Shown here in pieces: positions 4,348-62,429 of a stretch of DNA of 64,000 nt; position 1 is the first letter of the stretch, and each line of letters opens with the position of its first letter. Position numbers and translations under genes: made by a program. Location of the stretch: assembly GCA_947497945.1 (NCBI GenBank), contig CANMIP010000027.1, positions 1-64,000 on the forward strand, given 5' to 3'. The notes beneath the pieces were generated by a model. The model was not told the DNA's origin, did no database searches, and worked only from the letters and a program-made list of their open reading frames with translations. The DNA is from an uncultured Tropicimonas sp. Its GTDB lineage: Bacteria > Pseudomonadota > Alphaproteobacteria > Rhodobacterales > Rhodobacteraceae.

Positions 4348-4613
4348 TTGTCTTTACCTCACAAGCGATTAGTTGATGTTCCTCATGCCGGATCGTCACG
4401 GTTTGGCATCCCCCAATGCCGGATTCCATGGCCGCAGCCCCGGTTCGGGCGGCACATTAGCGCGTCTGGCGGAACATGCAAATGCGACCTTAGGTGTGCA
4501 GTTGCGGCATTTCCGGTCTGCGTCCTGCGAAAGGCTCGGCCGCGCCGTACTTCCGCCGTTTACCTTCGCTTCTCGGCGCCGCATCATGCGCGGGCAGGAA
4601 ACGGGAGAAGATC

Positions 4614-7731: not shown

Positions 7732-10494
7732 TCAGGCCTCCACCGCCTCGACCTTGACGGCTGAATACTTGAACTCCGGGATCTTGCCGACAGGATCCAG
7801 CGCCGGATTGGTCAACAGGTTCGCCGCCGCCTCGACAAAGGCGAAGGGGACGAAGACCATGTCCGGCGAGATCGCCCGATCCGCCCGCGCCATGATCTCG
7901 ATCGAGCCACGCCGGGTCGACAACCGGACCATCTCGCCCGGCGCGACACCGAGCTTGCGCAGGGTCGCGGGATGGAGCGAGCAATTCGCCTCCGGCTCCA
8001 TCGCGTCGAGCACCCTGGAGCGCCGGGTCATCGAGCCGGTATGCCAATGTTCGAGCTGCCGGCCGGTTGTCATCACCATCGGGAAATCGGCATCCGGCGC
8101 CTCGTCCGGCGCCACGATGGCGGCGGGGGTGAACTTCGCCCGACCCTCGGCGCGCGGGAAACCATCGCCGAAGACAACAGCCTGTCCCGGGTCGCTCGGG
8201 GAGAGCGACGGGTAGGTCACCGTCTCGCGCTCCAGCCGCTCCCAGGTGATATTGTCGAGGCTCGCCATCACCTGTTTCATCTCGGCGAAGATCTCGCTGG
8301 GATGGGCATAGCTCCAGCCCAGGCCGAGCCGTCTCGCCAGTTCGGTCGTGATCTGCCAATCCTCGCGGGCCTCGCCCGGCGGCGCGACCGCCGCGCGCAC
8401 CATCTGGACCTGCCGGTTGGTGTTGGAGACGGTTCCCGTCTTCTCGTAGAGGGCAGAGGCCGGCAGGATCACATCGGCATAATTCGCTGTTTCCGTGAGG
8501 AAAATATCCTGCACTACGAGATGTTCCAACTTGGCCAGCGCGTCGCGGGCATGGGCCACATCCGGGTCCGACATGGCCGGGTTCTCGCCGAGAATATACA
8601 TGCCGCGGATTGCCCCCGCATGCACATCATCAAGGATCTCGGTGACGGTCTGGCCCTTCTGGGCGGAGAAATCCTCCATCTCCCAGAGCGAGGTGAATGT
8701 CGCCCGGATGCCGTCATCGGTCACGCTTTGGTAATCGGGCAGGAACATCGGGATCAGCCCGGCATCGGAGGCGCCCTGCACGTTGTTCTGGCCGCGCAGC
8801 GGGTGCAGCCCCGTGCCGGGCCGGCCGACATGGCCGCACATGAGCGCGAGGCTGATCAGGCAGCGGGAATTGTCGGTGCCGTGGATATGCTGGCTGACGC
8901 CCATGCCCCAGAAGATCATCCCGGCTTTCGCCCCGGCGAAGGTCCGGGCAACGTCCCGCAATGTCTCGGCATCTATGCCGCAGAGATCGGCCATCTTTTC
9001 CGGCGCGAAATCAGCCAGATGCGCCTTCTCCGCCTCCCAGTTCTCGGTGAAACGGTCGATATAGGACGCGTCGAAAAGCTCCTCCTCGACAATGGTCGCC
9101 ATGATCGCGTTGAGCATGGCCACATCCGTTCCGGGACGGAATTGCAGGTTATGCGAGGCGAAACGTTTCAGCCCGGTGCCGCGCGGATCCATCATGATCA
9201 GCTTGCCGCCCCTCTGCGTGAACTGCTTGAAGAAGGTCGCGGCGACGGGATGGTTTTCCAGCGGGTTGCAGCCGATCAGGATGGCAACATCGGCATTCTC
9301 GATCTCGTTGAACGTCGCCGTCACCGCGCCCGAACCGACATTCTCCAGCAGGGCCGCGACCGAGGAAGCATGGCAGAGCCGGGTGCAGTGATCGACATTG
9401 TTATGTCCGAAGCCTTCGCGGATGAGCCGCTGGAAGAGATAGGCCTCTTCATTGGTGCATTTCGCCGAGCCGAACCCGGCCACGGCCCGCCCGCCATGCG
9501 CCGCGCGCAGACCGGCCAGCCCGCCCGCCGCCGCGTCCAGCGCCTCGTCCCAGCTTGCCTCGCGGAAATGGGTCAAGAGGTTGCCGGGATCGACATTGAG
9601 CCCCTTCGCCGGCGCATCCTCGCGCCGGATCAGGGGCTTGGTCAGCCGGTGCCCGTGGTGGATATAATCATAGCCGAAGCGCCCCTTGACGCAGAGCCGC
9701 CCTTCATTGGCCGGCCCGTTGATCCCCTCGACATGGGCGATCTTGCCGTCCTTCACCTTGAGATTGACGAGGCAACCAACCCCGCAGAAGGGGCAGACCG
9801 ACTGCGTCTCGCTGTCGAAATCATTCTTGTCGCCGCGTTGCGCCGCGTCGAGGATCGACGCCGGCATCAGCGCCCCCGTCGGGCAGGCCTGCACGCATTC
9901 ACCGCAGGCCACGCAGGTTGAACTTCCCATCGCATCCGACTGATCGAACACGGGAAAAGCGTCATGCCCGCGCCCGGCCATGCCGATCACGTCATTGACC
10001 TGCACCTCACGGCAAGCGCGCACGCAGAGCCCGCACTGGATGCAGGCATCGAGATTGACCCGCATCGCGACATGGCTGTCATCGAGCAGCGGGATGCGTT
10101 CTTTCTCCAGCGCCGGGAAGCGGCTCTCCTTGACGCCGACCTGGTCGGCCGTCTCCCAGAACTGGCTGGAGAGGTCATGCGCGTCCTCTCGCTCCGGCTG
10201 GTCCGCCATCAGCATCTCGACCACCATCTTGCGCGCGCGCTCGGCCCGCACGGTGTCGGTTTTCACGACCATGCCGTCCACCGGCTCGCGGATGCAGGAG
10301 GCGGCAAGCGTGCGCTCACCCTCGATCTCCACCATGCAGGCGCGGCAATTGCCGTCCGGCCTGTAGCCGGGGGCGGGCTTGTGGCAGAGATGCGGGATCT
10401 TCAGGCCAGCGCCATTGGCAACCTCCCAGATCGACTGTCCGGGTTCGGCCTCGGCGGGCTTGCCATCAAGGGTGAAACGGATGGTTTCGGACAT
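7732..10494 (-). CDS. fdsA: NAD-dependent formate dehydrogenase, molybdenum catalytic alpha subunit
   Basis: A 920-residue protein with the FdsA architecture. It has an N-terminal [2Fe-2S] NuoG-like domain (Cys37, 50, 53, 67) and two [4Fe-4S] ferredoxin motifs (CIQCGLCVRAC at 151-161, CVACGECVQAC at 194-204). These are followed by the molybdopterin oxidoreductase domain with its own cluster (CPFCGVGC, from residue 234). The Mo ligand is a cysteine (Cys374 in DHCTRLCHASS), where E. coli FdhF has selenocysteine. The C-terminal MGD-binding domain ends the protein. It oxidises formate to CO2 and passes electrons to the FdsB/FdsG module. Its start overlaps the stop of the preceding small gene by one base (TGATG), so the two are translationally coupled. 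Confidence 0.95.
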   Translation of the reverse strand: MSETIRFTLDGKPAEAEPGQSIWEVANGAGLKIPHLCHKPAPGYRPDGNCRACMVEIEGERTLAASCIREPVDGMVVKTDTVRAERARKMVVEMLMADQPEREDAHDLSSQFWETADQVGVKESRFPALEKERIPLLDDSHVAMRVNLDACIQCGLCVRACREVQVNDVIGMAGRGHDAFPVFDQSDAMGSSTCVACGECVQACPTGALMPASILDAAQRGDKNDFDSETQSVCPFCGVGCLVNLKVKDGKIAHVEGINGPANEGRLCVKGRFGYDYIHHGHRLTKPLIRREDAPAKGLNVDPGNLLTHFREASWDEALDAAAGGLAGLRAAHGGRAVAGFGSAKCTNEEAYLFQRLIREGFGHNNVDHCTRLCHASSVAALLENVGSGAVTATFNEIENADVAILIGCNPLENHPVAATFFKQFTQRGGKLIMMDPRGTGLKRFASHNLQFRPGTDVAMLNAIMATIVEEELFDASYIDRFTENWEAEKAHLADFAPEKMADLCGIDAETLRDVARTFAGAKAGMIFWGMGVSQHIHGTDNSRCLISLALMCGHVGRPGTGLHPLRGQNNVQGASDAGLIPMFLPDYQSVTDDGIRATFTSLWEMEDFSAQKGQTVTEILDDVHAGAIRGMYILGENPAMSDPDVAHARDALAKLEHLVVQDIFLTETANYADVILPASALYEKTGTVSNTNRQVQMVRAAVAPPGEAREDWQITTELARRLGLGWSYAHPSEIFAEMKQVMASLDNITWERLERETVTYPSLSPSDPGQAVVFGDGFPRAEGRAKFTPAAIVAPDEAPDADFPMVMTTGRQLEHWHTGSMTRRSRVLDAMEPEANCSLHPATLRKLGVAPGEMVRLSTRRGSIEIMARADRAISPDMVFVPFAFVEAAANLLTNPALDPVGKIPEFKYSAVKVEAVEA

Positions 10495-49270: not shown

Positions 49271-49391
49271 GGCAATTGCATGCGACGGTTCGAACCGAAA
49301 GGGCATTTCCGGCAGGTGACAGAGCGCCACCTTGATCGAAGGCGCATCGCTTGCAGGATGGCCGAAACTCTTACTCGGGCAAGGTAATCGC

Positions 49392-50441
49392 ATGGCTGAT
49401 TTCTCGGACCTCCTGCTGGAAGGCGTGCCGATACCGCTGGTCCTTGTCGGACCCGACCAGCGAATCCGGTCGATGAATTCCGGCGCGCTGGAAATCTTCG
49501 CCGGCTCTGGGGTCGGACGGCATTACGTGACCGTGATGCGACAGCCCGCGCTGATCGAATGTGTCGAACGGGCGATGCAACAGGGCAGCGAGGGGCGCAC
49601 GCGCTATATCGACAAGGGGCTCGACCGCGAGGCGAGCTACAGGGTCCGGGCGGTGGCGCTCGACGCGGAGGACGGCATGCATGTGTTGCTGTCCTTCGAG
49701 GATGTCACGGAGTTCGAAAAGGCCGGCGAGATGCGGCGGGATTTCGTCGCCAATGTCAGCCATGAGTTGAAGACGCCGCTGACGGCGCTGATCGGATTCA
49801 TCGAGACGCTGCGCGGGGCCGCGCGGGACGATGCCGTTGTGCGCGAGCGGTTCCTGGGGATCATGGAACGCGAGGCCGAGCGGATGAACAGGCTGGTTTC
49901 GGACCTACTCTCGCTCAGCCGGGTGGAGTCGGCCGAGCGGCAGCGGCCGACGGATCCGGTCGATGTCGACGATCTCGTGGCCGCGACCCTGTCGCCGCTG
50001 CAAGCGCTGGCAAAGACGGAATCGGTGACGCTGGAGGTCATGCGTCCCAAGGATGTGCCGGACCCGCTGGTCGTACCGGGCGACCGGGACCAGCTGCAGC
50101 AGGTGCTGACCAACCTCATCGAGAACGGCATCAAATACGGGCGCGAGGGCGGGACGGTCCGGATCATGCTCGACTATTCGCCGCGCGAGCTCGCCTTCCG
50201 GGGGCCTGGCGTCCGGATCCAGGTCGTCGATGATGGCGAGGGGTTCGATCCGATCCATATCCCGCGCCTGACGGAGCGGTTCTACCGAGTCGACAATCAC
50301 CGCTCGCGCGCCGTGGGCGGAACCGGTCTCGGCCTCGCGATCGCCAAGCATATCATCAACCGCCACCGCGGCCGGTTTCGAATCGAGACCGAGCCGGGCA
50401 AGGGGGCGCGCTTCTCGATTCTCCTCCCGGCCCTGACCTGA
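49392..50441 (+). CDS. phoR: Phosphate regulon sensor kinase PhoR, without membrane segments
   Basis: A 349-residue histidine kinase. An N-terminal PAS domain (about 8-105; GVPIPLVLVGPDQRIRSMNS) is followed by FVANVSHELKTPLTALIGF with His124 and an ATPase domain (N box NLIENGIKYG, then DDGEGFD and GTGLGLAIAKH). No hydrophobic N-terminal helix is present, unlike E. coli PhoR, so the kinase would be cytosolic and depend on PhoU/Pst for input. The start at 49392 has AAGG ahead. It lies just upstream of pstS and is separated from it by the Pho box. Confidence 0.93.
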   Translation: MADFSDLLLEGVPIPLVLVGPDQRIRSMNSGALEIFAGSGVGRHYVTVMRQPALIECVERAMQQGSEGRTRYIDKGLDREASYRVRAVALDAEDGMHVLLSFEDVTEFEKAGEMRRDFVANVSHELKTPLTALIGFIETLRGAARDDAVVRERFLGIMEREAERMNRLVSDLLSLSRVESAERQRPTDPVDVDDLVAATLSPLQALAKTESVTLEVMRPKDVPDPLVVPGDRDQLQQVLTNLIENGIKYGREGGTVRIMLDYSPRELAFRGPGVRIQVVDDGEGFDPIHIPRLTERFYRVDNHRSRAVGGTGLGLAIAKHIINRHRGRFRIETEPGKGARFSILLPALT

Positions 50442-50555
50442 TCCGGGCCGGGCTTCGGGCAAGTTGTCCCCTGGGTACAGGTTCTGGAGCGTTGGCGGTC
50501 ACTCTCGGTGCTGCCGGTGGGGCAATCGGCAATTCTTTGTCACGAAAACCGGCCA

Positions 50556-50584
50556 CTGTCATCGTCCTGTTACATGCCTGTCAC
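50556..50584 (+). promoter_or_regulatory. Pho box upstream of pstS
   Basis: Three 7-base direct repeats, CTGTCAT (50556-50562), CTGTTAC (50567-50573) and CTGTCAC (50578-50584), are spaced by exactly 4 bases. This 11-base periodicity matches the PhoB binding site consensus. It lies 85 bases before the pstS start, so PhoB probably activates the pst-pho operon from here under phosphate limitation. Confidence 0.9.
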
Positions 50585-50668
50585 AAAAAGCCAACGCGTC
50601 GCCGCTAAACGCCAACCGAGGCCGTCGGGGAGCGACGGTCCGTTAACACTCTGCCATGGAGAACACCT

Positions 50669-51709
50669 ATGTCTCTCGTGAAGCTGACCGCCTCCGCCCT
50701 GGCGATCGCTGCCGTTTCGGCAACCGCTGCCTCTGCCCGTGACAACGTCCAGGTCGCCGGTTCCTCGACTGTTCTGCCCTATGCCTCCATCGTTGCCGAG
50801 GCGTTCGGCGAGAACTTCGATTTCCCGACCCCGGTCGTCGAGTCCGGCGGTTCCTCTGCCGGCCTGAAGCGCTTCTGCGAAGGCGTCGGTGAAAACACCA
50901 TCGACATCGCCAATGCCTCGCGCGCCATCAAGGACTCTGAGATCAAGGCCTGTGCCGAAGCCGGCGTGACCGACATCATCGAGGTTCGCATCGGCTATGA
51001 CGGCATCGTCTTCGCCTCGCAGACCGATGGCCCGGCCTTCACCGCCCTGGAAGCCGCCGACATCTTCAACGCCCTGTCCGACAAGGTTCTCGTCGACGGC
51101 GCGCTGGTCGACAACCCGCACCAGCAATGGGCCGATTTCAACGCCGAGCTGCCGGCCGTCGACATCATCGCCTTCCCTCCGGGCACCAAGCACGGCACCC
51201 GTGAAGTCTTCGAAGACAAGGTCGTGCTCGCCGGCTGTGAAGAGACCGGTGCTTTCGAAGCCTTCAAGGCTGCCAATGGCGGCGACAAGAAGGCCGCCGA
51301 GAAGGCCTGTATCGCCCTGCGCACCGACGGCAAGTCGGTCGATGTCGACGGTGACTACACCGAGACCCTGGCCCGTATCGACGCCAACCCGAACGGTGTC
51401 GGCATCTTCGGCCTGGCCTTCTACGAGAACAACACCGACAAGCTGAAGGTCGCCACCATGGGCGGCGTCGTTCCGTCGACCGAGTCCATCGCCACCGGCG
51501 AGTACCCGGTCTCCCGTCCGCTGTTCTTCTACGTCAAGAAGGCCCATATCGGCGTCATCCCCGGCCTGAAGGAATACGCCTCCTTCTTCGTCGCTGACGA
51601 GATCGCCGGTGGCGACGGCCCGCTGGCCGCCTACGGCCTTGTTGCCGACCCCGAACTGGCCGCCACCCAGGCTGCCGTCGAGGCCGAAGACGTCATGGGC
51701 GGCATGTAA
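50669..51709 (+). CDS. pstS: Phosphate ABC transporter substrate-binding protein
   Basis: A 346-residue periplasmic phosphate-binding protein. A signal peptide (MSLVKLTASALAIAAVSATAASA) is followed directly by VQVAGSSTVLPYASIVAEAF and the phosphate-contacting SGGSSAGLKRFCEG. DIANASRAI and GTKHGTREVFED are also conserved. It hands phosphate to PstCA. GGAG sits eight bases before the ATG. It is first of the operon after the Pho box, and an 11-bp stem-loop separates it from pstC. Confidence 0.95.
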   Translation: MSLVKLTASALAIAAVSATAASARDNVQVAGSSTVLPYASIVAEAFGENFDFPTPVVESGGSSAGLKRFCEGVGENTIDIANASRAIKDSEIKACAEAGVTDIIEVRIGYDGIVFASQTDGPAFTALEAADIFNALSDKVLVDGALVDNPHQQWADFNAELPAVDIIAFPPGTKHGTREVFEDKVVLAGCEETGAFEAFKAANGGDKKAAEKACIALRTDGKSVDVDGDYTETLARIDANPNGVGIFGLAFYENNTDKLKVATMGGVVPSTESIATGEYPVSRPLFFYVKKAHIGVIPGLKEYASFFVADEIAGGDGPLAAYGLVADPELAATQAAVEAEDVMGGM

Positions 51710-51732
51710 CTGCCCCCGGGCTCACGCCCTTC

Positions 51733-51758
51733 GGGAGGGTGGCGCAGGCCACCCTCCC
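51733..51758 (+). terminator. Stable stem-loop between pstS and pstC
   Basis: A perfect 11-bp stem, GGGAGGGTGGC (51733-51743) with GCCACCCTCCC (51748-51758), closes a GCAG loop 23 bases after pstS. There is no T tract. It probably protects the pstS message and reduces read-through, giving more PstS than membrane subunits. Confidence 0.65.
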
Positions 51759-51883
51759 ACCCAGGATACCTTCCTCCCCTGGTGCCCCGCTCAGACATGC
51801 CGGAAAGGCTGCCGGCGGGCGCCGTCGTTCAAGGGCCGCGCTTGCACCCCCGGGACGAAAAACGCGAATGAATGAGGTTGCCG

Positions 51884-53365
51884 ATGCCGGTGCTCTGGAT
51901 CGTCCTTGCAGTCTTCGGACTCGGACTGATCGGTTATTTCGCCGGGCGCATGCGTGCGCTTGGCTCAGCTGGAGGCGATGCGCGTCGGCTTCACTCCCTT
52001 CCGAACTATTATGGCTGGCACGCGTTCATGTTGACGGTTGTGCCGGCCTTGCTCGTTCTGGCGGCATGGTTGCTCGTCGCACCGTCCATGATCGACACCA
52101 GGATCGGTGACTCGCTGCCCGAGAGCGCCATCGCGGAAGGCGGCAGCCGCAGCCTCGTGATGGCGGAAGTGCGCCGCGCGGCCGTTGCGCTCGACATGGC
52201 GATCGAACAGGGCAGGATGGACAGCGAAACGGCTGCGAACCTGCGCTCGGACATGGCCGATGTAACGGCGCGGCTCAAGGAAACCGGCGCGATCATCACC
52301 TCGACGATCACCCAGCCCGTGCTGCGCGCGGCGCAGGAATTCCGGGTGCTGTCCGGAATTTCGAATTTCTGGATGACGGTGGTGGTCGGCCTGCTCGCGA
52401 TCGCGGGGTTCGCGCTGGCGCTCCTGCAGACACACAAGGATTTCCGGGCCCGCAACACGGTGGAGGCCGGGATCAAGACGATCCTCATCCTGGCATCGAC
52501 CATCGCCATCCTGACCACGGTCGGCATCGTGCTGTCGATGTTCTTCGAGACCGGCAATTTCTTCGAGAAATACGCCTGGACGGAGTTCTTCTTCGGCACC
52601 AAATGGGCGCCGGATTTCCGGGGCGACTCGGAGCTGGGCATGCTGCCGCTGCTCTGGGGCACGCTTTATATCTCCTTCGTGGCGCTCGCCGTTGCGGTGC
52701 CGGTCGGGCTGTTCGCGGCGATCTACCTGTCGGAATATGCCGGGCCGAAGCTGCGCGCGGTGGCCAAGCCGATGATCGAGATCCTCGCCGGCATCCCGAC
52801 CATCGTCTACGGCCTCTTCGCGCTGATCACGGTCGGCCCGATTGTCCGGGACTGGATCGCCCAGCCGCTGGGCCTGGGCAATTCGACCAACTCGGTGATG
52901 ACCGCGGGCCTCGTCATGGGCATCATGCTGATCCCCTTCGTCTCCTCGCTCTCCGATGACATCATCAACGCGGTGCCGCAGGCGATGCGGGACGGTTCCT
53001 TCGGCCTTGGCGCCACCCATTCGGAGACGATCAAGCAGGTCGTGCTACCGGCGGCGCTGCCGGGCATTGTCGGCGCCGTGCTGCTGGCCGCGTCGCGCGC
53101 CATCGGCGAAACCATGATTGTCGTCATGGGGGCAGGGGCCGCGGCCGCCCAGTTCCAGGAAGGGCTGGGCGCGGTGATCAACCCGTTCGAGGCCATGACC
53201 ACGGTGACGGTGAAGATCGTCTCGCAGCTGACCGGGGATACCGATTTCGCCAGCCCCGAGACGCTTGTCGCCTTCGCGCTCGGCCTGACCCTCTTCGTCA
53301 TCACGCTGGGCCTCAATGTTCTGGCCCTCTATATCGTGCGCAAGTACCGGGAGCAGTACGAATGA
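51884..53365 (+). CDS. pstC: Phosphate ABC transporter permease PstC
   Basis: A 493-residue inner-membrane permease, longer than the E. coli protein (about 320) because of an N-terminal extension with two hydrophobic segments and a helical periplasmic loop. The core permease has LLPLLWGTLYISFVALAVAVP and the coupling region SHGLGATH-like FGLGATHSETIKQVVLPAALPG. The start at 51884 is preferred because GAGG lies six bases ahead; an ATG at 51872 is possible. It overlaps pstA in an ATGA junction. Confidence 0.94.
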   Translation: MPVLWIVLAVFGLGLIGYFAGRMRALGSAGGDARRLHSLPNYYGWHAFMLTVVPALLVLAAWLLVAPSMIDTRIGDSLPESAIAEGGSRSLVMAEVRRAAVALDMAIEQGRMDSETAANLRSDMADVTARLKETGAIITSTITQPVLRAAQEFRVLSGISNFWMTVVVGLLAIAGFALALLQTHKDFRARNTVEAGIKTILILASTIAILTTVGIVLSMFFETGNFFEKYAWTEFFFGTKWAPDFRGDSELGMLPLLWGTLYISFVALAVAVPVGLFAAIYLSEYAGPKLRAVAKPMIEILAGIPTIVYGLFALITVGPIVRDWIAQPLGLGNSTNSVMTAGLVMGIMLIPFVSSLSDDIINAVPQAMRDGSFGLGATHSETIKQVVLPAALPGIVGAVLLAASRAIGETMIVVMGAGAAAAQFQEGLGAVINPFEAMTTVTVKIVSQLTGDTDFASPETLVAFALGLTLFVITLGLNVLALYIVRKYREQYE

Positions 53366-54729
53366 CCGACGCAACGGCAAACACGCCCGCCGCTCCGAAA
53401 GAGGGCAAACATGCGGGCTCGCTCTTCGATGCGGATGCCCGCACGCAGAAGCGCAATGCCTCCGAGGCGCGGTTCCGGGCGCTTGGGCTTGGCGCCATCG
53501 GGATCGGCGTCGCCGCGCTGATCGTGCTGCTGGTCTCGATCCTGTCCCAGGGCCTGCCGGCCTTCCAGCAGACCTTCATCACGCTGGATGTCTATCTGGA
53601 CGAGGCCAAGCTGGACAAGAATGGCGAGCGCGACATCGAGAAGATCAAGAAGGTCTCGACCTTCGGCTACGCGCCGCTGATCAAGAACGCCATGACCTCC
53701 CGCAATGAGGAACTGGGCATCGACATGGCGGCCCTGGGCGTATCCGACAAGGAAATGTCGGCGATGGTTTCCAAGGAAGCCGCCGCGCAGCTGCGCCGCT
53801 TCGTCATCGCCAACCCGGACCGGATCGGCGACACGGTGGAGTTCGAGTTTCTCGCCTCCGGCCGGATCGACGGCTATTACAAGGGCCGCGTGACCCTGGA
53901 GAGCGCCGAGCGTGACAGCAATGTCTCCCCCGGCCAGCTCCAATATGCCGACGCGCTGAAAGAGGGCGGGGCGCTGAGCACCCATTTCAACTGGGGCTTC
54001 CTGACCATGGCGGATGCCTCCGAGAACCGCCCCGAGGCCGCCGGGATCGGCGTGGCGATGATCGGCTCGCTCTACATGATGCTGGTCGTGCTCTTCCTCG
54101 CGCTGCCAATCGGTGTCGCCGCTTCGATCTACCTGGAGGAATTCGCGCCGAAGAACTGGTTCACCGACATGATCGAGGTGAATATCTCCAACCTCGCGGC
54201 CGTGCCCTCCATCGTCTTCGGCATCCTGGGCCTGGCGATCTTCATCAACTATGCCGGCCTGCCGCAGTCGGCGCCCATCGTCGGCGGCCTCGTGCTGACG
54301 CTGATGACGCTGCCGACCATCATCATCTCGACCCGCGCCTCGCTGAAATCGGTGCCGCCGAGCATCCGCGATGCGGCCCTCGGGGTAGGGGCCTCGAAGA
54401 TGCAATCCGTGTTCCACCATGTGCTGCCGCTGGCCATGCCCGGCATCCTCACCGGCACCATCATCGGCCTGGCGCAGGCGCTTGGGGAAACCGCTCCGCT
54501 GATGCTGATCGGCATGGTGGCCTTCGTGCGCGAATTCCCCTCGGCGCCGCCGGAAGGCTTCTTCGACCCGGCCTCGGCCTTGCCGGTGCAGGTTTATAAC
54601 TGGACCACCCGTGCCGACCCGGCCTTTGTGGAGCGCGCTTCCGGGGCTATCATTGTCCTGCTGTGCTTCCTGCTCTGCATGAACTTTCTCGCCATCATCC
54701 TCCGTCGCCGCTTCGAGCGCCGCTGGTAA
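53362..54729 (+). CDS. pstA: Phosphate ABC transporter permease PstA
   Basis: A 455-residue permease with an unusually long N-terminal part: a hydrophobic segment at about residues 45-70 followed by a soluble loop of about 150 residues before the permease core. The core shows GSLYMMLVVLFLALPIGVAA, VFGILGLAIF and the coupling motif LGVGASKMQSVFHHVLPLA. Extended PstC/PstA pairs are typical of alphaproteobacteria. It is coupled to pstC and lies 20 bases before pstB. Confidence 0.94.
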   Translation: MTDATANTPAAPKEGKHAGSLFDADARTQKRNASEARFRALGLGAIGIGVAALIVLLVSILSQGLPAFQQTFITLDVYLDEAKLDKNGERDIEKIKKVSTFGYAPLIKNAMTSRNEELGIDMAALGVSDKEMSAMVSKEAAAQLRRFVIANPDRIGDTVEFEFLASGRIDGYYKGRVTLESAERDSNVSPGQLQYADALKEGGALSTHFNWGFLTMADASENRPEAAGIGVAMIGSLYMMLVVLFLALPIGVAASIYLEEFAPKNWFTDMIEVNISNLAAVPSIVFGILGLAIFINYAGLPQSAPIVGGLVLTLMTLPTIIISTRASLKSVPPSIRDAALGVGASKMQSVFHHVLPLAMPGILTGTIIGLAQALGETAPLMLIGMVAFVREFPSAPPEGFFDPASALPVQVYNWTTRADPAFVERASGAIIVLLCFLLCMNFLAIILRRRFERRW

Positions 54730-54749
54730 CCCTCTGGAGGACCTGAAAA

Positions 54750-55547
54750 ATGAACGATTTGCGACCAGTGGAGCGCACCGTGGACACCAAGGAAATCAAG
54801 TTCGACTGCAGCGACGTGCAGGTGCATTACGGCGCGACCCACGCCATCAAGGACGTGGCGGTCAAGCTCGAGGACAAGACCGTGACGGCTTTCATCGGCC
54901 CCTCTGGCTGCGGCAAGTCCACCTTCCTGCGCTGTCTCAACCGGATGAACGACACGATCGATATCTGCCGTGTTCAGGGCAAGCTGCTGCTCGATGGCGA
55001 AGATATCTATGACAAGCGGGTGGACCCGGTCCAGCTGCGCGCCAAGGTGGGGATGGTGTTCCAGAAGCCGAACCCCTTCCCGAAGTCGATCTATGACAAC
55101 ATCGCCTATGGGCCGCGCATCCATGGGCTGGCTAGGAACAAGGCCGAGCTGGACGAGATCGTCGAGAAATCCCTGCGGCGCGGTGCGATCTGGGACGAGG
55201 TCAAGGACCGGCTCGACGCGCCGGGCACCGGCCTCTCGGGCGGCCAGCAGCAGCGCCTGTGCATCGCCCGCGCCATCGCCACCGAGCCGGAAGTGCTGCT
55301 GATGGACGAGCCCTGCTCGGCGCTCGACCCGATTGCGACCGCACAGGTCGAGGAACTGATCGACGAGCTGCGCGAGAACTACTCGGTGGTCATCGTGACC
55401 CACTCGATGCAGCAGGCCGCGCGGGTCAGCCAGAAGACGGCCTTCTTCCACCTCGGCAACTTGGTGGAATTCGGCGAGACCGGGCAGATCTTCACCAATC
55501 CGAAAGATCCGCGTACGGAGAGCTATATCACTGGCCGGATCGGCTAA
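54750..55547 (+). CDS. pstB: Phosphate ABC transporter ATP-binding protein
   Basis: A 265-residue ATPase. Walker A is [20 protein letters not shown], the signature [18 protein letters not shown] and Walker [14 protein letters not shown]; the H-loop is [14 protein letters not shown]. It powers phosphate import through PstCA and, with PhoU, transmits phosphate status to PhoR. CTGGAGGA is well placed before the ATG. phoU follows after 17 bases. Confidence 0.97.
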
Positions 55548-55564
55548 GGGAGAGAACAGACGCA

Positions 55565-56290
55565 ATGGTTATGGACAAGACCGAACGGCATATCGCACGT
55601 GCCTATGACCGCGACCTGGAAGCGATCCAGGCGCATATCATGAAGATGGGCGGGCTCGTCGAGGCCGCTATCCTGGATGCCGCCGAGGCGCTGTCCTCCC
55701 GGGACGAGGAACTGGCCGAGAAGGTCCGCAACTCCGACCGCGCCATCGACGAGCTGGAAACGCTGATCCAGAACGAGGCGGCGCTGACGATTGCCGAGCG
55801 CCAGCCGATGGCGTTCGACCTGCGCACCATTCTCGCGGTGATGAAGATCGCCTCGAACCTGGAGCGCATCGGCGACTACGCCAAGAACATGGCCAAGCGG
55901 ACCGGTGTCCTCGTGCAGATGAAGCCGATCGAGGAAAACTCGTCTTCGATCCGCCGGATGGCGAAGATGGTCGAGGTCATGCTCAAGGATGCGCTGGACG
56001 CCTTCGTGCAGCGCGACCCGGAGCTGGCCGAGGATGTGCGCCAGCGCGACCTCGAAGTGGACCAGATGTACAACTCGCTGTTCCGCAACTACCTGACCTA
56101 CATGATGGAAGATCCGCGCAACATCACGGCCTGCATGCACCTGCATTTCATCGCCAAGAATATCGAGCGGATGGGCGACCATGTGACGGCGGTCGCCGAG
56201 CAGGTGATCTATCTCGCCACGGGCGAGTTGCCCGAAGACACCCGTCCCAAAGGGGACCGGACCTCGGTCCATCTGGGCGAGGGCACCTGA
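55565..56290 (+). CDS. phoU: Phosphate signalling protein PhoU
   Basis: A 241-residue helical protein made of two three-helix repeats. Each repeat carries a metal-binding motif of the type E/D-x-x-x-D: NLERIGDYAKNMAKR near residue 100 and NIERMGDHVTAVAEQ near residue 200. It links PstB to PhoR and represses the Pho response when phosphate is plentiful. GGGAGAG precedes the ATG. Its stop overlaps the start of phoB by one base. Confidence 0.96.
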   Translation: MVMDKTERHIARAYDRDLEAIQAHIMKMGGLVEAAILDAAEALSSRDEELAEKVRNSDRAIDELETLIQNEAALTIAERQPMAFDLRTILAVMKIASNLERIGDYAKNMAKRTGVLVQMKPIEENSSSIRRMAKMVEVMLKDALDAFVQRDPELAEDVRQRDLEVDQMYNSLFRNYLTYMMEDPRNITACMHLHFIAKNIERMGDHVTAVAEQVIYLATGELPEDTRPKGDRTSVHLGEGT

Positions 56291-56982
56291 TGTCGCCGAC
56301 GGAGCAACCAAGGGTGCTTGTTGTCGAGGACGAGCCTGCGCAGCGGGAAGTCCTCGCCTACAATCTCGAAGCCGAGGGGTTCCATGTCGAGAAGGCCGAG
56401 AACGGCGAGGAGGCGCTCCTGCTGGTCGATGAAGAGGCGCCCGACGTGATTGTGCTGGACTGGATGCTGCCCAATGTCTCGGGCATCGAGATCTGCCGCC
56501 AGCTCAAGACCCGCTCGGAGACCCGCAACGTGCCGATCATCATGCTGAGCGCCCGCTCCGAAGAGATCGACCGGGTGCGCGGGCTGGAGACCGGTGCCGA
56601 CGACTATGTCGTCAAACCCTATTCCGTTGCCGAGCTGATGGCCCGTATCCGCGCGCAGCTCCGGCGGACACGCCCCTCCAGCGTCGGCGAGAAACTGACC
56701 TTCGAGAACATCGTGCTCGATGCCGAGACCCACAAGGTTTTCCGCGACGAGAAGCTCCTGAAACTCGGTCCGACCGAGTTCCGGCTGCTGACCACCTTCA
56801 TGGAGAAGCCGGGCCGGGTCTGGAGCCGGGAACAGCTGCTGGACCGGGTCTGGGGCCGCGACATCTATGTCGACACCCGGACAGTGGATGTGCATATCGG
56901 CCGGTTGCGCAAGGCGCTCTGCCAGCATGGCGGCAACGATCCGGTGCGCACGGTGCGCGGTGCGGGCTACGCGCTCGGCTGA
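56290..56982 (+). CDS. phoB: Phosphate regulon response regulator PhoB
   Basis: A 230-residue OmpR-type regulator. The receiver domain has phosphoacceptor Asp57 (VIVLDWMLPN) and the C-terminal winged helix contains LGPTEFRLLTTFMEKPGRVWSREQLL and TVDVHIGRLRKAL. It binds Pho boxes such as the one at 50556. Translational coupling to phoU and the downstream terminator make it the last gene of the operon. Confidence 0.97.
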   Translation: MSPTEQPRVLVVEDEPAQREVLAYNLEAEGFHVEKAENGEEALLLVDEEAPDVIVLDWMLPNVSGIEICRQLKTRSETRNVPIIMLSARSEEIDRVRGLETGADDYVVKPYSVAELMARIRAQLRRTRPSSVGEKLTFENIVLDAETHKVFRDEKLLKLGPTEFRLLTTFMEKPGRVWSREQLLDRVWGRDIYVDTRTVDVHIGRLRKALCQHGGNDPVRTVRGAGYALG

Positions 56983-57055: not shown

Positions 57056-57284
57056 CAGCGCTCCGCTTGACTTGCGTCATGGAGATTTAGGGCCAGCTGT
57101 GTGATGATCTGCGGCGTTGCAGGTCCGGAAATGCTCGTCGGACTTCGCCCGGGATTCGGTCCGTTTCGACGATTTCATGGGAGCCCAGGCAGCGGCGATG
57201 TCCATTTCAGGAAGCTCCGGCAGAGGTGAGCGGCACGCCTTTCTCGCGTCAGTGCGTGTTCGCGCAATGGGGAGGATGTGGCGC

Positions 57285-57815
57285 ATGTTTTCGCGAACGG
57301 GCTGGCAAATCACGAGATGGAACGGGGAGACTCTTGGCCTGACCATCGGCCTCGGGCTTGCGGGCGGCACTCTTGAGATCGGGCTTTCGCACGGCTCCCG
57401 GATGCATACCCTGTCCTGCATTGGCGCCGGCGGTGCCATCGGGCTCGGCGCCGACATCACGCCGCCCTCCGGGGCGCTCGGATTCCAGACGCCGACACGG
57501 ACCGATTACGGCAGGCTCTACAAGAACGACCTTGTCGTCGAGGACGAACTCGACTTCGACCTGCTGCGAAGCTCCACGCTCATGGTAACCGGTGTCGAGC
57601 TGCCAATCCTGGACGAAGGAGGCGCGGGATATGTGGTGCTGTTTTCGTCCGGCACCGCAACCGTCGCGACCATCGTGGCCGGCGCCGGCGGGATGTTGTC
57701 CATGCTAGTGGCCGGCGCGACCTGCCGGGCGATCGCCTTCGTCGGCACCGCCGCGCGGGGCGTGCCGGCAGCGGAACTGGCCGGCTATCGCTACAGGATC
57801 ATCGGCGGCTCCTGA
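57285..57815 (+). CDS. Glycine-rich beta-type protein, function unknown
   Basis: About 176 residues from the preferred ATG at 57285, which has GGGGAGG ahead; ATGs further 5' (for example 57198) are possible. The sequence is rich in Gly, Ala, Val and Thr with alternating hydrophobic strands (LGLTIGLGLAGGTLEIGLSHG, then CIGAGGAIGLGADITPPSGALGF and ATIVAGAGGMLSMLVAGATC), which suggests a compact beta barrel or sheet. There is no signal peptide. I recognise no family. It lies alone between the Pho terminator and a strong hairpin at 57881. Confidence 0.5.
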   Translation: MFSRTGWQITRWNGETLGLTIGLGLAGGTLEIGLSHGSRMHTLSCIGAGGAIGLGADITPPSGALGFQTPTRTDYGRLYKNDLVVEDELDFDLLRSSTLMVTGVELPILDEGGAGYVVLFSSGTATVATIVAGAGGMLSMLVAGATCRAIAFVGTAARGVPAAELAGYRYRIIGGS

Positions 57816-57959: not shown

Positions 57960-59303
57960 CTAGAACTTCAGGATTTCCAGACCGCTCAGGAGGATCAGCA
58001 AGATCGCGATCGGGGCGACGTAGCGCAAGATGAACATCCAGGCCTTGGTCAGGACGCCTGGTTCACCATCTCCCGACACTTCCCGGATCGCAATCGGCGC
58101 AATGACCCAGCCGGTGAAGATGCAGATCAGCATGCCGCCGACCGGCAGCATCAGCTTGTCCGTCAGCCAGCTTGCGGAATCGAGGAACCCTTGGCCCTTG
58201 ATGAAGTGGATGTCGCTCCAGATGCCGACCGACAGCGACGACGGTATGCCAAGCAGGAAAATCACCACGCCGGAGCCGATCGTGGCCGTCTTGCGGGACA
58301 GGCCCATATTGGTGAAGAAAGCGACGACCGGCTCGAGGATCGAGATCGACGAGGTCAGCGCCGCGATGGTCAGCAGCACGAAGAAGATGATGGCGAAGAA
58401 ATACCCGCCGGGCATCGAGTTGAAGACCGTCGGCAAGGTGACGAATGTCAGGCCCGGCCCGGCCGCGGGGTCCATGCCGAAGGCAAAGACGGCCGGCAGG
58501 ATGGCAAGCCCTGCCAGGATGGCGACCAGCGTATCCAGGAACGCGATCTGGACCACGGATTTTCCGATATTCGTCTGCCTGTCGACATAGGATCCGAAGG
58601 TCAACAGAATGGCCATGCCGAGCGACAGGGAGAAGAATGCCTGCCCGAGCGCGGCCATGACCGTGTGGGCTGAGATCTTGGAGAAGTCCGGCGCGAGGAA
58701 GAATTCCAGGCCCTTTTCTGCGCCGGGGAGGGTCACCGAGCGCGCCACAAGGGCAACAAGGATGACAAAGAACAATGGCATCAGGAACTTGCTGGTCTTC
58801 TCGATGCCACCGGAAACGCCCCCGATGACGATGGTGATGGTCACCGCCGCGAAGATGCCGTGATAGACGATCGGTGCCACCGGCGATCCGATGAAGGCCC
58901 CGAAGGATCCTCCGATTGCTTCCGCGTCCATGCCCGAGAAAGTGCCACCGGCGGATTTGACGATATAGGCGATGCACCAGCCGGCGACGACGGAATAGAA
59001 GGACAGGATAATCACGGCCGTTATGACCGCCAGGACGCCAACGAAGGTCCAGCCGGGCTTCCCGATCTTCCGGAACGCGTTGATGGCATCGGTCTGGGCG
59101 CTGCGGCCAATGGCGATTTCCGCCAGCATGACGGACAGGCCGATGGTGAAGACGATCCCGAGATAGATGATGATGAAGGCCGCGCCTCCATTCTCTCCGG
59201 CGATATAGGGGAATTTCCAGATATTTCCGAGACCGATCGCAGAGCCTGCGGTGGCCAGGATGAAACCAAGGCGCGAGCCCCAGTTTTCATGTGTTGTGTT
59301 CAT
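57960..59303 (-). CDS. Sodium-dependent transporter, SNF/NSS family
   Basis: A 447-residue membrane symporter of the neurotransmitter:sodium symporter family (LeuT fold). The N-terminus shows the signature GFILATAGSAIGLGNIWKFP followed by YIAGENGGAAFIIIY. About eleven hydrophobic helices follow. The sixth helix region reads ALGQAFFSLSLGMAILLTFGSY, the unwound substrate-site segment. Bacterial members import amino acids or related amines with Na+. The substrate is not predictable here. The ATG at 59303 has AGGA ahead and is preferred over 59321. Confidence 0.92.
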   Translation of the reverse strand: MNTTHENWGSRLGFILATAGSAIGLGNIWKFPYIAGENGGAAFIIIYLGIVFTIGLSVMLAEIAIGRSAQTDAINAFRKIGKPGWTFVGVLAVITAVIILSFYSVVAGWCIAYIVKSAGGTFSGMDAEAIGGSFGAFIGSPVAPIVYHGIFAAVTITIVIGGVSGGIEKTSKFLMPLFFVILVALVARSVTLPGAEKGLEFFLAPDFSKISAHTVMAALGQAFFSLSLGMAILLTFGSYVDRQTNIGKSVVQIAFLDTLVAILAGLAILPAVFAFGMDPAAGPGLTFVTLPTVFNSMPGGYFFAIIFFVLLTIAALTSSISILEPVVAFFTNMGLSRKTATIGSGVVIFLLGIPSSLSVGIWSDIHFIKGQGFLDSASWLTDKLMLPVGGMLICIFTGWVIAPIAIREVSGDGEPGVLTKAWMFILRYVAPIAILLILLSGLEILKF

Positions 59304-59986
59304 TTTCCTGTCCCTGAACATTCTGCATTCGAAGTGAATGCAGGTGAAACATTAGGCTCCTGACGAGCTTTGGCGGCGGTAGATCACACCAGATCACTGA
59401 CGGGAATGCGGCATCTGCTGACCGGACCTTGCGTCGCGCTGTTCTACCGACAATTTTGCGCTTCAGGCGCCGTTCGAGGTTTCTGACCGTCCGAAGCGGA
59501 GCAGGGGAGCGAGATACCCTGTTGCCGGAAACCCGGTCACCGGTCCGCGTCTACGCAGGTATCGAAATGTTTGCCGGTCAGGCCACAGCTGTTCTCGGCA
59601 TCGTTCAGAAAGATCCGCTTGCGTCTCTATGACAGCACCGGTCGCTTGCCGACATGGCGTTCGTCGCGTGGACAGACGATGTCTCACGGCCAATCGGCTT
59701 CAAGTTCAGGGTCCACTCCAGGGACTCGCTACAACGCTGGAAGGTGATGAGCCGGGCGGTTTTCGATACGCGAACGCAAGGCCGCCATTCGCCTTTGGCG
59801 GAACGGTGAAACGTAAGAGCCGGTCAGCAGAGGTCGAAACCGGGGGGGGCGCGCAGGTCAGAACAGATCGCGCCAAAGCGACATACATAAGTCCTGTAAT
59901 CGGTATTATGTAAATATTACGTTGATGTCCGACCGGGCACCCCGTGCCCGGTACATATGAGACTCGCGTCGTAACCCGCAGACAAG
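59304..59986. other. Intergenic region with palindromes, no gene recognised
   Basis: About 680 bases between the symporter start and the end of rquA. Short open frames on both strands translate to arginine- and proline-rich sequence without domains. Near the right end a 9-bp perfect stem, ACCGGGCAC (59932-59940) with GTGCCCGGT (59944-59952), lies just downstream of rquA and may terminate it. The AT-rich patch at 59880-59925 is unexplained. Confidence 0.45.
59932..59952 (-). terminator. Hairpin downstream of rquA
   Basis: A perfect 9-bp stem with a 3-base loop lies 35 bases beyond the rquA stop codon. No T run follows on the minus strand, so termination strength is uncertain. Confidence 0.45.
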
Positions 59987-60733
59987 TCAGGCTTTCTTGA
60001 TGCCCACGACCTTCTGGTACAACCCACCGAAGATCGTCTCCTTGCGCCACTCGAACTGGTCACGATCGTCGACATACTCCCAGAGCTCATGGCTCCAGAG
60101 CGCCTTTGCAAATGGTTCGAGCCATTTGAAGACCAGCCAGATGATCGGACGCATCGGATGCAGCAATGCCGGCTCATGGTAATCGACGAACATGAGTTTC
60201 CCGCCCGGCTTGACGTGGCTGGCCAGGTTGTTGGCGATGTCGCGTTTGTAGTCGTCCGGAACCTCGTGCATGAGGAAATAGGAATTGACCACGTCATAGA
60301 GTCCGTCACCCGTCACGCGCGCGTCGCAAATCCCGGTCCGGGTTTGCGGCAATTGCGCGATCTTGCGGTTCACGTGATCGATCTGCACCTGTTGAATATC
60401 GGTGACGTGATACTCGCCCTCCGGCCCGACCTTGCCGGCCAGGTGCGACACGAGCTTGCCATAGACGGCGGCCGGCTGCAGCACGCGCGAACCCGCTTCG
60501 ATTTCATCCCGCGCCGCGCGCATCAGCTTGTTCTGTTGCATCCAGAGGATTGTCGCGACGACAACTTCCCGGTCCAGGAGCTCGACCATGTTCGGCGCCA
60601 CATAGGCCCAAGTGTAGACGTCGACGAGGTAATCCGGCAGCTTTGGCGCAGGCATGTCTTCCCAGGCGACCGACGGCGCGGACGATGCGACGTTCACCTT
60701 CTCTTTTCCGGCGAAATCTACGCTGGCATTCAT
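59987..60733 (-). CDS. rquA: Rhodoquinone biosynthesis enzyme RquA
   Basis: A 248-residue methyltransferase-fold protein. It shows RquA-type features: PDYLVDVYTWAYVAPNMVEL (residues 33-52), EVVVATILWMQQNKLMRAA, a degenerate SAM motif I VLQPAAVYG at 84-92 in place of the usual VLDxGCGxG, FLMHEVPDDYKRDIANNL (about 153-170) and VDYHEPALLHPMRPI at 183-197. RquA replaces a methoxy group of ubiquinone by an amino group, using S-adenosylmethionine as amino donor, to make rhodoquinone at the inner membrane. The ATG at 60733 has AAAGGG ahead; an open extension to 60877 is unlikely to be coding. It is monocistronic and opposite to aroQ. Confidence 0.88.
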   Translation of the reverse strand: MNASVDFAGKEKVNVASSAPSVAWEDMPAPKLPDYLVDVYTWAYVAPNMVELLDREVVVATILWMQQNKLMRAARDEIEAGSRVLQPAAVYGKLVSHLAGKVGPEGEYHVTDIQQVQIDHVNRKIAQLPQTRTGICDARVTGDGLYDVVNSYFLMHEVPDDYKRDIANNLASHVKPGGKLMFVDYHEPALLHPMRPIIWLVFKWLEPFAKALWSHELWEYVDDRDQFEWRKETIFGGLYQKVVGIKKA

Positions 60734-61236
60734 GGCTGGACCCTTTCCAAGTACGGAAGCGATTCCGCTCCCAGAATTTCGCGGCGCAAAGCCGACGCGC
60801 CGCTTTCGCAACCGATAGCGTCTAAACCGGCTTTGCGGCGACATTATCTGCCTTTTCACACCCCGAAAATGCGTCAAACCCGGTAAAGAAGCGCAATGGC
60901 TGCATTGCCGATTTCACGGGAGCGCAAGGCTCTGGTCCTGGAGGTTTCGAAACCGAGGCCGCCGCAAGGAGCAAAACGGGTCCCCCAGATGCGCTACAGC
61001 GAGAGAAACCCCTCTGGCGCACTGCCGAAAATGCCGAAAATTCATTAAAATTCAAATAGATTCGCTGCGAAATTGAAGTATTTGGACGATCCCGCGTTGA
61101 TTGTGCCGGGCGACACGCCATCAACCACCCCTGCCCCGACGCCGCGTCCATTCGCCACGACCTGCTTTCCCTAGCGTCTCGACACAAACCGTTCTTCGGA
61201 CTATTTTGCCGCGAACTCACGGGACGACTTATATAA
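60734..61236. other. Divergent intergenic region between rquA and aroQ
   Basis: About 500 bases with an AT-rich centre (61030-61085). It should hold the promoters of rquA (-) and aroQ (+). TTATATAA just before aroQ could be part of a promoter. I see no gene and no convincing FNR or other operator. Confidence 0.4.
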
Positions 61237-61680
61237 ATGACCTCAATTCTTGTATTGAACGGGCCCAACATCAACCTGTTGGGAACCCGCCAACCCGAAG
61301 TCTACGGGACCACCACATTGGCGCAAATCGAGGAGAGCTGTCACCAGACAGCCGCCGAACTCGGTTGCGAGATCGCATTCCGGCAATCGAATCATGAAGG
61401 TACGATGATCGACGAGATCCATGCCGCGCGCGGTGTGCATGCCGGCATCGTTCTCAATGCGGGCGCCTATACCCACACCTCCATCGCGCTGATGGACGCG
61501 ATCGCTTCCGTCGAATTACCGGCCATCGAACTCCACCTGAGCAATGTGCATGCGCGCGAGCCCTTCCGCCATGTGTCCTACATCTCGAAAGTCTCGATCG
61601 GGATCATCTGCGGCTTCGGCCCGGCTGGCTATCCGCTCGCATTGAGGGCGATGGCCGATCATCTGGGAGCGGCCGTTTGA
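61237..61680 (+). CDS. aroQ: 3-Dehydroquinate dehydratase, type II
   Basis: A 147-residue type II dehydroquinase. It dehydrates 3-dehydroquinate to 3-dehydroshikimate in the shikimate pathway. It shows ILVLNGPNINLLGTRQPEVYG with the catalytic tyrosine in the flexible loop, FRQSNHEGTMIDEIH, LNAGAYTHTSIALMDAI, ELHLSNVHAREPFRHVSYIS and GFGPAGYPLAL. No strong ribosome site precedes the ATG. Its stop overlaps the TTG start of the LuxR-type gene. Confidence 0.96.
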   Translation: MTSILVLNGPNINLLGTRQPEVYGTTTLAQIEESCHQTAAELGCEIAFRQSNHEGTMIDEIHAARGVHAGIVLNAGAYTHTSIALMDAIASVELPAIELHLSNVHAREPFRHVSYISKVSIGIICGFGPAGYPLALRAMADHLGAAV

Positions 61681-62429
61681 TTCTGGACTATGTGGAACGG
61701 GTCACTGCGCTCTCCGAGATGCAGGACATCTGGAGCTACCACAAGGAGGTGATGGCCACCTATGGATTCAACCGTGTCCTCTATGGCTTCACCCGATTCC
61801 GCACAGAGCGCTCGCTCGGCGACCCGCAGGATCTCCTTGTCCTGAGCAATCACGACCGCGCCTATATCCGGCCCTTCCTCGATGAAGGCCTCTACCTGAA
61901 CGCTCCGATGACGCTGTGGGCCCTCAACAATGTTGGTGTCTCTTCCTGGCGGCAGACCGACGAGATGGTGTCCGATGGCAGCATGAACGACAGTTCGTCT
62001 CGGATCTGGGAGTTCAACAAGCGTCACGGCCTCGGCGCCGGATACACCGTCAGTTTCAAGACCAACTCGAAGCGCTCCAAGGGCGCCATCAGCCTGACAT
62101 CGGTTCCGGCCCTGTCCTTCGACGAGGCGGACCGGATCTGGGCGGAGCACGGTCGCGAACTGGAGGCGATGAGCAATATCCTGCATCTGCGACTCTCCTC
62201 TTTGCCCAACCCCGACACCGGACGTTCCCTGACGACGCGCCAGCGCCAGGCGCTCGAATGGGTCGGCGATGGCAAGACGACCGCCGAGATCGCCGCAATC
62301 ATGGGGCTGACCTCGGCCACGATCGAGAAACATCTCCGCCTGGCCCGCGAAGCGCTCGATGTCTCGACCACCGCTCAGGCCGTTCTCAAGGCCGCCTTCC
62401 TCAACCAGATCTACATTGTCGAAGAGTGA
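61677..62429 (+). CDS. LuxR-family regulator with autoinducer-binding-like domain
   Basis: A 250-residue regulator. The N-terminal 165 residues resemble the autoinducer-binding domain (IWSYHKEVMATYGFNRVLYGF, then RIWEFNKRHGLGAGYTVSFK). The C-terminal LuxR helix-turn-helix is clear: LTTRQRQALEWVGDGKTTAEI followed by MGLTSATIEKHLRLAREAL. The tryptophan/tyrosine ligand pattern of acyl-homoserine-lactone receptors is only partly kept, and there is no luxI gene nearby, so it is a solo regulator that may sense another ligand. It starts at a TTG overlapping the aroQ stop, with GGGAG seven or more bases ahead, so the two are coupled. Confidence 0.85.
   Translation: MILDYVERVTALSEMQDIWSYHKEVMATYGFNRVLYGFTRFRTERSLGDPQDLLVLSNHDRAYIRPFLDEGLYLNAPMTLWALNNVGVSSWRQTDEMVSDGSMNDSSSRIWEFNKRHGLGAGYTVSFKTNSKRSKGAISLTSVPALSFDEADRIWAEHGRELEAMSNILHLRLSSLPNPDTGRSLTTRQRQALEWVGDGKTTAEIAAIMGLTSATIEKHLRLAREALDVSTTAQAVLKAAFLNQIYIVEE

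Follow-up and report, generated by a model that had tools for sequence, protein, structure and literature searches.

The rquA locus

The window, by which we mean the whole stretch of 64,000 nucleotides that was analysed, carries rquA, a single-copy gene in a 5.79-Mb genome, among the landmarks listed in Table 1. Its neighbours are a sodium symporter-family transporter gene, 665 bases away, and aroQ, 503 bases away; because the flanks are of this length, the first-pass annotation was right that the gene stands alone between a symporter gene and aroQ with long non-coding sequence on either side. The product of aroQ lies outside the rhodoquinone pathway. We found no complex II or quinone genes among the Pfam-scanned genes of the window, and no respiratory complex gene beside rquA in this genome. 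The window holds no known RNA element at gathering score, and a promoter and terminator scan of positions 59300-61300 gave no excess over shuffles (1 vs 0.7; 2 vs 2.2).

Two further open frames of the window have coding-like base composition. One, of 777 residues (4494-6827), has no Pfam match at E 1e-5. The other, of 232 residues (57117-57815), has neither a Pfam nor an NCBIfam match at that threshold, and no match at E 1e-5 in the stretches fetched from nine named relatives.

Table 1. Features at and around rquA, with window positions except where another contig is named
Feature	Position	Strand	Description
phoR-pstS-pstC-pstA-pstB-phoU-phoB	49332..56982	plus	landmark; names from Pfam domains and gene order
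Sodium symporter-family (SNF) transporter gene	57960..59321	minus	PF00209, 191 bits
rquA	59987..60733	minus	248 aa; ATG at 60733, stop ends at 59987
Conserved non-coding element upstream of rquA	60865..60930	minus	TTGC ... ATGC/TTGC ... GGNTTTGCCGCAT
aroQ	61237..61680	plus	type II 3-dehydroquinate dehydratase; neighbour
LuxR-type regulator gene	61677..62429	plus	autoinducer-binding domain, PF03472, 87 bits
ubiT-ubiU-ubiV in a row	G000:C24:82218-84690 (own genome)		NCBIfam models

The encoded protein is a member of the RquA family

The protein scores 289 bits against the NCBIfam RquA equivalog model NF038261, for which the curated cut-off is 175, and the match runs from residue 32 to residue 244 over profile positions 1-216 of 218. 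The next families are far behind: UbiE reaches 26.2 bits, short of its curated cut-off of 378, and MenG-type models reach 25 bits. At an E-value of 0.001 the RquA model finds matches in 12 of the 14 control genomes, and in none of the 14 does a match rise above the cut-off. The score also falls inside the range of 180-310 bits spanned by the other alphaproteobacterial RquA proteins over the cut-off. The identification as RquA, which had been made from the letters of the DNA, is thus borne out, and the three segments on which it leaned (VLQPAAVYG, MHEVPDD and VDYHEP) can all be read in the 248-residue translation of the minus strand, a strand that the first-pass annotation left unstated.

The first of these segments, VLQPAAVYG, occupies residues 84-92 and is a non-canonical form of S-adenosylmethionine (SAM) motif I, which has been described as a trait of the RquA family (PMC5953543). 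Among 63 aligned homologues, Q86 is shared by 60 and G92 by all 63, and wherever conservation reaches 85% or more the window protein has the prevailing residue. We took D112 and D137 as the counterparts of D118 and D143 of the Rhodospirillum rubrum enzyme, a mapping made through the printed numbering and the spacing, which is 25 in both proteins. D112 is aspartate in 63/63 homologues; D137 is aspartate in 58 and asparagine in five. The R. rubrum protein is a SAM-dependent rhodoquinone synthase in which a double alanine change at these two aspartates abolished RQ8 synthesis, and in which the first 40 residues are dispensable (PMC9814641).

An AlphaFold2 model built from a 30-row alignment (mean pLDDT 91.2, pTM 0.86) predicts a class I methyltransferase fold of alternating strands and helices. 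It is confident from about residue 31, close to where the family core (32-244) begins, and the first 30 or so residues are of low confidence, much as the N-terminus of R. rubrum RquA is disordered. Foldseek returned many SAM-dependent methyltransferases for this model, including yeast Coq5 (4obw_A; TM-score 0.63, 11% identity), whereas a search of solved structures by sequence found none that matches well (best E 0.29). The window protein and R. rubrum RquA are alike in family, degenerate motif I, aspartate spacing and predicted fold; they differ in that R. rubrum belongs to another bacterial order and that the activity of the window protein is a prediction. UbiE and COQ5 resemble RquA in their class I fold and quinone substrates but have a canonical SAM motif I (PMC5953543).

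Distribution of rquA in the genus, family and phylum

Of the ten relatives that we found, nine come from Aliiruegeria or Tropicimonas records (73-85% identity), the tenth being a proteobacterial metagenome bin at 46% identity. Together with the tree described below, this kinship upholds the earlier reading of the host as a member of the Rhodobacterales (Roseobacteraceae). All nine genomes of the genus that we examined carry rquA over the cut-off. Outside it the picture changes: rquA is over the cut-off in only 4 of the 394 genomes of a family sample that holds nearly one genome per genus, and two of those four belong to this genus. In the class sample the count is 23 of 385 and in the phylum sample 61 of 398; all three samples include the genome studied here. 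Even within one genus of the same family (g321), rquA is over the cut-off in one genome (G1096) and not in another (G328). Within the family, then, the gene is rare and patchy outside the Tropicimonas/Aliiruegeria genus. No match to the protein was found at E 1e-20 among 72,556 plasmid records.

A patchy distribution has been reported before. Stairs et al. (2018) counted rquA in 6 of 513 Rhodobacterales genomes (PMC5953543); those six are from the order of the window's host and may include Tropicimonas or Aliiruegeria, although the main text of that paper names none of Tropicimonas, Aliiruegeria, Pseudoruegeria and Ruegeria. This bears on the suggestion of the first-pass annotation that rquA is a surprise in this order. 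The surprise is overstated, because rquA in Rhodobacterales is already in print and because the gene is present throughout the genus, which implies that it has long been established in the lineage. The window gene is of a known kind, already documented in Rhodobacterales, and it is genuine and conserved.

Inheritance of rquA

We constructed a phylogenetic tree of 63 RquA sequences and E. coli UbiE. The class sample contributed 24 of its 29 new loci, the five left out being weak matches under 81 bits; loci were obtained from 30 of the 61 phylum-sample genomes over the cut-off, and 24 of them entered the tree (23 plus G1104). The remaining RquA rows include relatives of the protein and loci from the family sample. 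The window protein falls among the RquA rows, in a clade of ten Tropicimonas and Aliiruegeria rows with support of 100/100. This clade lies within a set of 36 rows (100/97) that are all alphaproteobacterial save one bin of unknown class, and four other alphaproteobacterial rows (G515, G617, G442 and G505) lie outside the set. A long stem, with 0.9 changes per column, leads to the genus clade, and the relations of the alphaproteobacterial rows around it have no resolution in the tree, from which no donor emerges. UbiE is the only outgroup, and since its branch, of length 10, joins the tree at another long row, the rooting carries little information.

A grouping of the genus clade with three other family members as a single clade is compatible with the data (p-AU 0.284 on a quick tree, in a test that left out rows L060, L064, L065, L076 and L077 and the outgroup), and therefore both one entry and several entries of rquA into the family are possible. 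Because the gene is so rare in the family, it was likely acquired at some point before the genus arose.

The genomic context of rquA is largely kept among the named relatives. In 9/9 of them a LuxR-type gene lies 0.4-2.0 kb from rquA and is divergent from it, with aroQ between the two in five. On the other side, phoB lies within the fetched flank in eight of the nine, in one of them merely at the edge. The symporter gene lies outside this conserved neighbourhood, having no match in the rquA stretches fetched from these nine relatives. When we examined ten relatives that lack rquA, fetching the sequence around their LuxR-type gene, we found pst-phoB and aroQ-luxR 3.5-4.4 kb apart in three, in differing orientation and with no rquA between them; in the remaining seven, phoB is absent from the fetched stretch. 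These neighbourhoods fit an insertion of rquA into an older arrangement of genes.

The gene is under purifying selection. Against nine relatives dN/dS is about 0.09-0.13, with dS approaching saturation for the more distant of them; the pair A. sabulilitoris and A. lutimaris gives 0.05.

Other rquA loci in the family and class

Two other members of the host's family, G230 and G1096, encode RquA proteins that are over the cut-off like that of the window (294.7 and 290.7 bits) and only 36-37% identical to it. Unlike the window gene, theirs adjoin nirK-type and ethylbenzene-dehydrogenase-type genes; NirK itself has no match at E 1e-40 in any of the nine genomes of the Tropicimonas/Aliiruegeria genus. 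The G230 cassette (L048:8327-12518) reads nirK, an ethylbenzene-dehydrogenase-like gene (PF09459), a gene for a DUF2231 membrane protein and rquA, and lies close to DUF3141 and cyclopropane-fatty-acid synthase genes. At the G1096 locus (L113:8577-12657), nirK and an acetate kinase gene were tested by search and the other neighbours were matched by eye only. Beside the nirK-rquA cassette of G230 there is also a complex I-like operon (L048:13998-17948, L208:534-5542) with NuoA-, NuoH- and NuoJ-type genes by Pfam and look-alikes of NuoK, NuoL and NuoM by eye. One of its products, of 707 residues, joins NuoB-like and NuoD-like stretches, between which lie three heavy-metal-binding stretches (PF19335).

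Two further copies are damaged. The rquA of G215 is truncated to 135 residues and ends just before an FAD oxidoreductase gene (L050:6933-8475), and that of G100 (L051, about 7770-8430) is decayed; both adjoin ethylbenzene-dehydrogenase-like genes, recognised by Pfam in G215 and by eye in G100. These two copies suggest that other family members are in the course of losing the gene. The alphaproteobacterial genome G452 encodes two full-length and different rquA genes over the cut-off (L119, L120). In G382 (L049:9704-10762) rquA and a frame that we read by eye as a transposase overlap at their 3' ends, and because of this overlap that rquA copy may be mobile.

Ubiquinone supply and complex II

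Elsewhere in the genome, ubiT, ubiU and ubiV stand in a row (Table 1). Their NCBIfam scores are 67.8 bits for ubiT (cut-off 46.9), 444.5 for ubiU (440, narrowly passed) and 354.6 for ubiV (275). UbiU and UbiV are 43% and 31% identical to the E. coli proteins. A 92-residue piece of E. coli UbiT gave no significant tblastn match to the ubiT gene, which therefore owes its name to the NCBIfam model alone. Along with the Q-10 described for Aliiruegeria, the three genes point to a host that makes ubiquinone. An adjacent pair of U32-family genes, which we took as ubiU and ubiV, is present in 9/9 genomes of the genus; of the 61 genomes searched, 18 have rquA over the cut-off, and 13 of these have the pair. 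Counted by genus, the pair occurs in only 5 of 10 rquA genera as against 8 of 40 family genomes without rquA, both sets being hand-picked. Of three remaining genomes, the one with the truncated rquA (G215) and one with a match under the cut-off (G515) have the pair, and the one with the decayed gene (G100) does not. The co-occurrence figure in print is 73 of 84 genomes (PMC11707229).

We found one complex II flavoprotein over the cut-off in the genome studied here and in each member of the genus. The sdhA gene of this genome adjoins genes with an SdhB-type and two Sdh_cyt-type domains, which together give domains for all parts of complex II. None of the nine genomes of the genus has a second complex II, and none has a flavocytochrome c fumarate reductase over the cut-off (best 236 against 285 bits, in G003). 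In this the genus differs from two other alphaproteobacteria: G724 and G547 have the gene for a second complex II flavoprotein at 2.4 and 2.2 kb from rquA; arrangements like theirs were described by Stairs et al. (PMC5953543).

A conserved element upstream of rquA

The non-coding element upstream of rquA could be aligned in 10/10 genus members, where its last block, GGNTTTGCCGCAT, is placed at -134 to -178 relative to the start of rquA. With a leave-one-out matrix for this block, the aligned site was the best site in each of the ten; its score was reached by none of 300 shuffles in eight members, by one in a ninth and by two in a tenth. The alignment makes the element a probable regulatory site, with the qualification that shared ancestry adds to its conservation. 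The genome has nine occurrences of a 16-base form, including the one at rquA, compared with four of a reversed control. A form made of two half-sites occurs at 86 places against 16 for the control, a count that is uninformative, 84 of the 86 having one mismatch.

We also considered other regulatory signals. One copy of the element, with one mismatch, lies 272 bases before ubiT; we treated it as chance because a similar site (one mismatch) stands upstream of ubiT in only one of eight relatives (L205). Boxes of the form TTGACnnnnGTCAA are present upstream of ubiT in 4 of the 9 genus genomes and absent in the genome studied here. The FNR box TTGAYnnnnRTCAA, allowing at most one mismatch, has 4 sites in the window against 3.28 expected, and the stretch from 57081 to the end of the window holds none of them; when the sequence upstream of rquA was scanned with looser settings, one relative (L003) showed a single site, with one mismatch, and no site was conserved. 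With no FNR box found upstream, FNR control of rquA was rejected. As for the neighbouring LuxR-type regulator, its gene has matches in 17 of the 27 family genomes of other genera that we searched, and a functional link to rquA is only a guess, since the gene is also found in relatives without rquA.

A predicted rhodoquinone synthase and its partner in the respiratory chain

The explanation that we hold, with good confidence, to be the best as a whole is that the window gene is an orthologue of rquA with a predicted ubiquinone-to-rhodoquinone activity, that rhodoquinol would feed a reversed complex II, and that the gene probably entered an ancestor and was then inherited vertically. In a single step the enzyme would turn ubiquinone into rhodoquinone by exchanging a methoxy group of the ring for an amino group from S-adenosylmethionine, as R. 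rubrum RquA does. The products of ubiT, ubiU and ubiV could supply the ubiquinone substrate in the absence of oxygen. Under low oxygen, rhodoquinol would carry the electrons of complex I to the one complex II, which would run in reverse as a fumarate reductase. The ancestor that acquired rquA would be that of the Tropicimonas/Aliiruegeria lineage, with vertical inheritance since. The rhodoquinone-linked fumarate reduction named in the first-pass annotation is an inference here; if rhodoquinone is used in this way here, one complex II must work in both directions, which a complex II can in principle do.

That last step is where the alternative with the most to recommend it departs from our reading, though we consider it unlikely. 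Rhodoquinone may be made and yet not have complex II as its main partner, serving some other low-potential quinone reaction or acting as a redox buffer instead. The single complex II, the lack of a dedicated fumarate reductase among our matches, and the absence of a respiratory complex gene beside rquA, unlike in G724 and G547, would all agree with this. Against it stands the capacity of one complex II to run both ways. The role of rhodoquinone in print, moreover, is fumarate reduction (PMC9814641, PMC13386864).

An improbable alternative is that the protein is a diverged relative of RquA that no longer makes rhodoquinone. A Desulfobacterota rquA expressed in E. coli gave no rhodoquinone (PMC13386864), so homology alone is no proof of RquA activity, and the long stem of the genus clade would also suit such divergence. 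Yet the protein keeps the common residue at all of the well-conserved positions, its score is typical of alphaproteobacterial RquA, and the gene is under purifying selection.

It is highly improbable that an ordinary ubiquinone methyltransferase, or another methyltransferase, has been misread as RquA. The superfamily is the same, and two generic methyltransferase Pfam models pass their cut-offs on the protein with 30 and 35 bits; but the UbiE score is dwarfed by the RquA score, motif I has the non-canonical form known from RquA, and in the tree the E. coli UbiE outgroup stands at a very great distance. Contamination or misassembly has next to no likelihood: the genome is in 115 contigs, but rquA lies within one of 95.6 kb in the same order of neighbours as in named relatives, and the contamination estimate is 0.37%.

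Beyond the preferred reading of an active RquA feeding complex II, we entertain as a speculation, and a doubtful one, that rquA may be under a lineage-specific switch, made up of the upstream element and possibly the LuxR-type regulator, rather than under FNR, the reported regulator of the ubiquinone genes that supply the pathway, with one bidirectional complex II serving both quinones. If this were true, the direction of the respiratory chain would depend on more than oxygen, and cell density or some other signal would set it.

What has been published on the physiology of the group includes life without oxygen. Tropicimonas has been emended as aerobic or facultatively anaerobic, and Aliiruegeria has Q-10 as its primary ubiquinone, most isolates reducing nitrate (PMC8267831); EMP fermentation and anoxic respiration are reported for a Tropicimonas isolate (PMC10939381). 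A species description that gives Q-10 does not by itself rule rhodoquinone out. Magnetococcus marinus was reported as having ubiquinone only until rhodoquinone was found in it (PMC11707229). By literal word match, the open-licence papers that we searched include none that joins Tropicimonas with rhodoquinone or Aliiruegeria with a word beginning in quinone, and nothing relevant that joins rquA with Roseobacter.

The marine roseobacters of the Tropicimonas/Aliiruegeria group are culturable and include named strains; rhodoquinone is predicted for them and, in the open-licence literature that we found, unreported. With one complex II found and the genes of oxygen-independent ubiquinone synthesis in place, the group is well suited as a test case for whether a single complex II can switch direction by the type of quinone alone.
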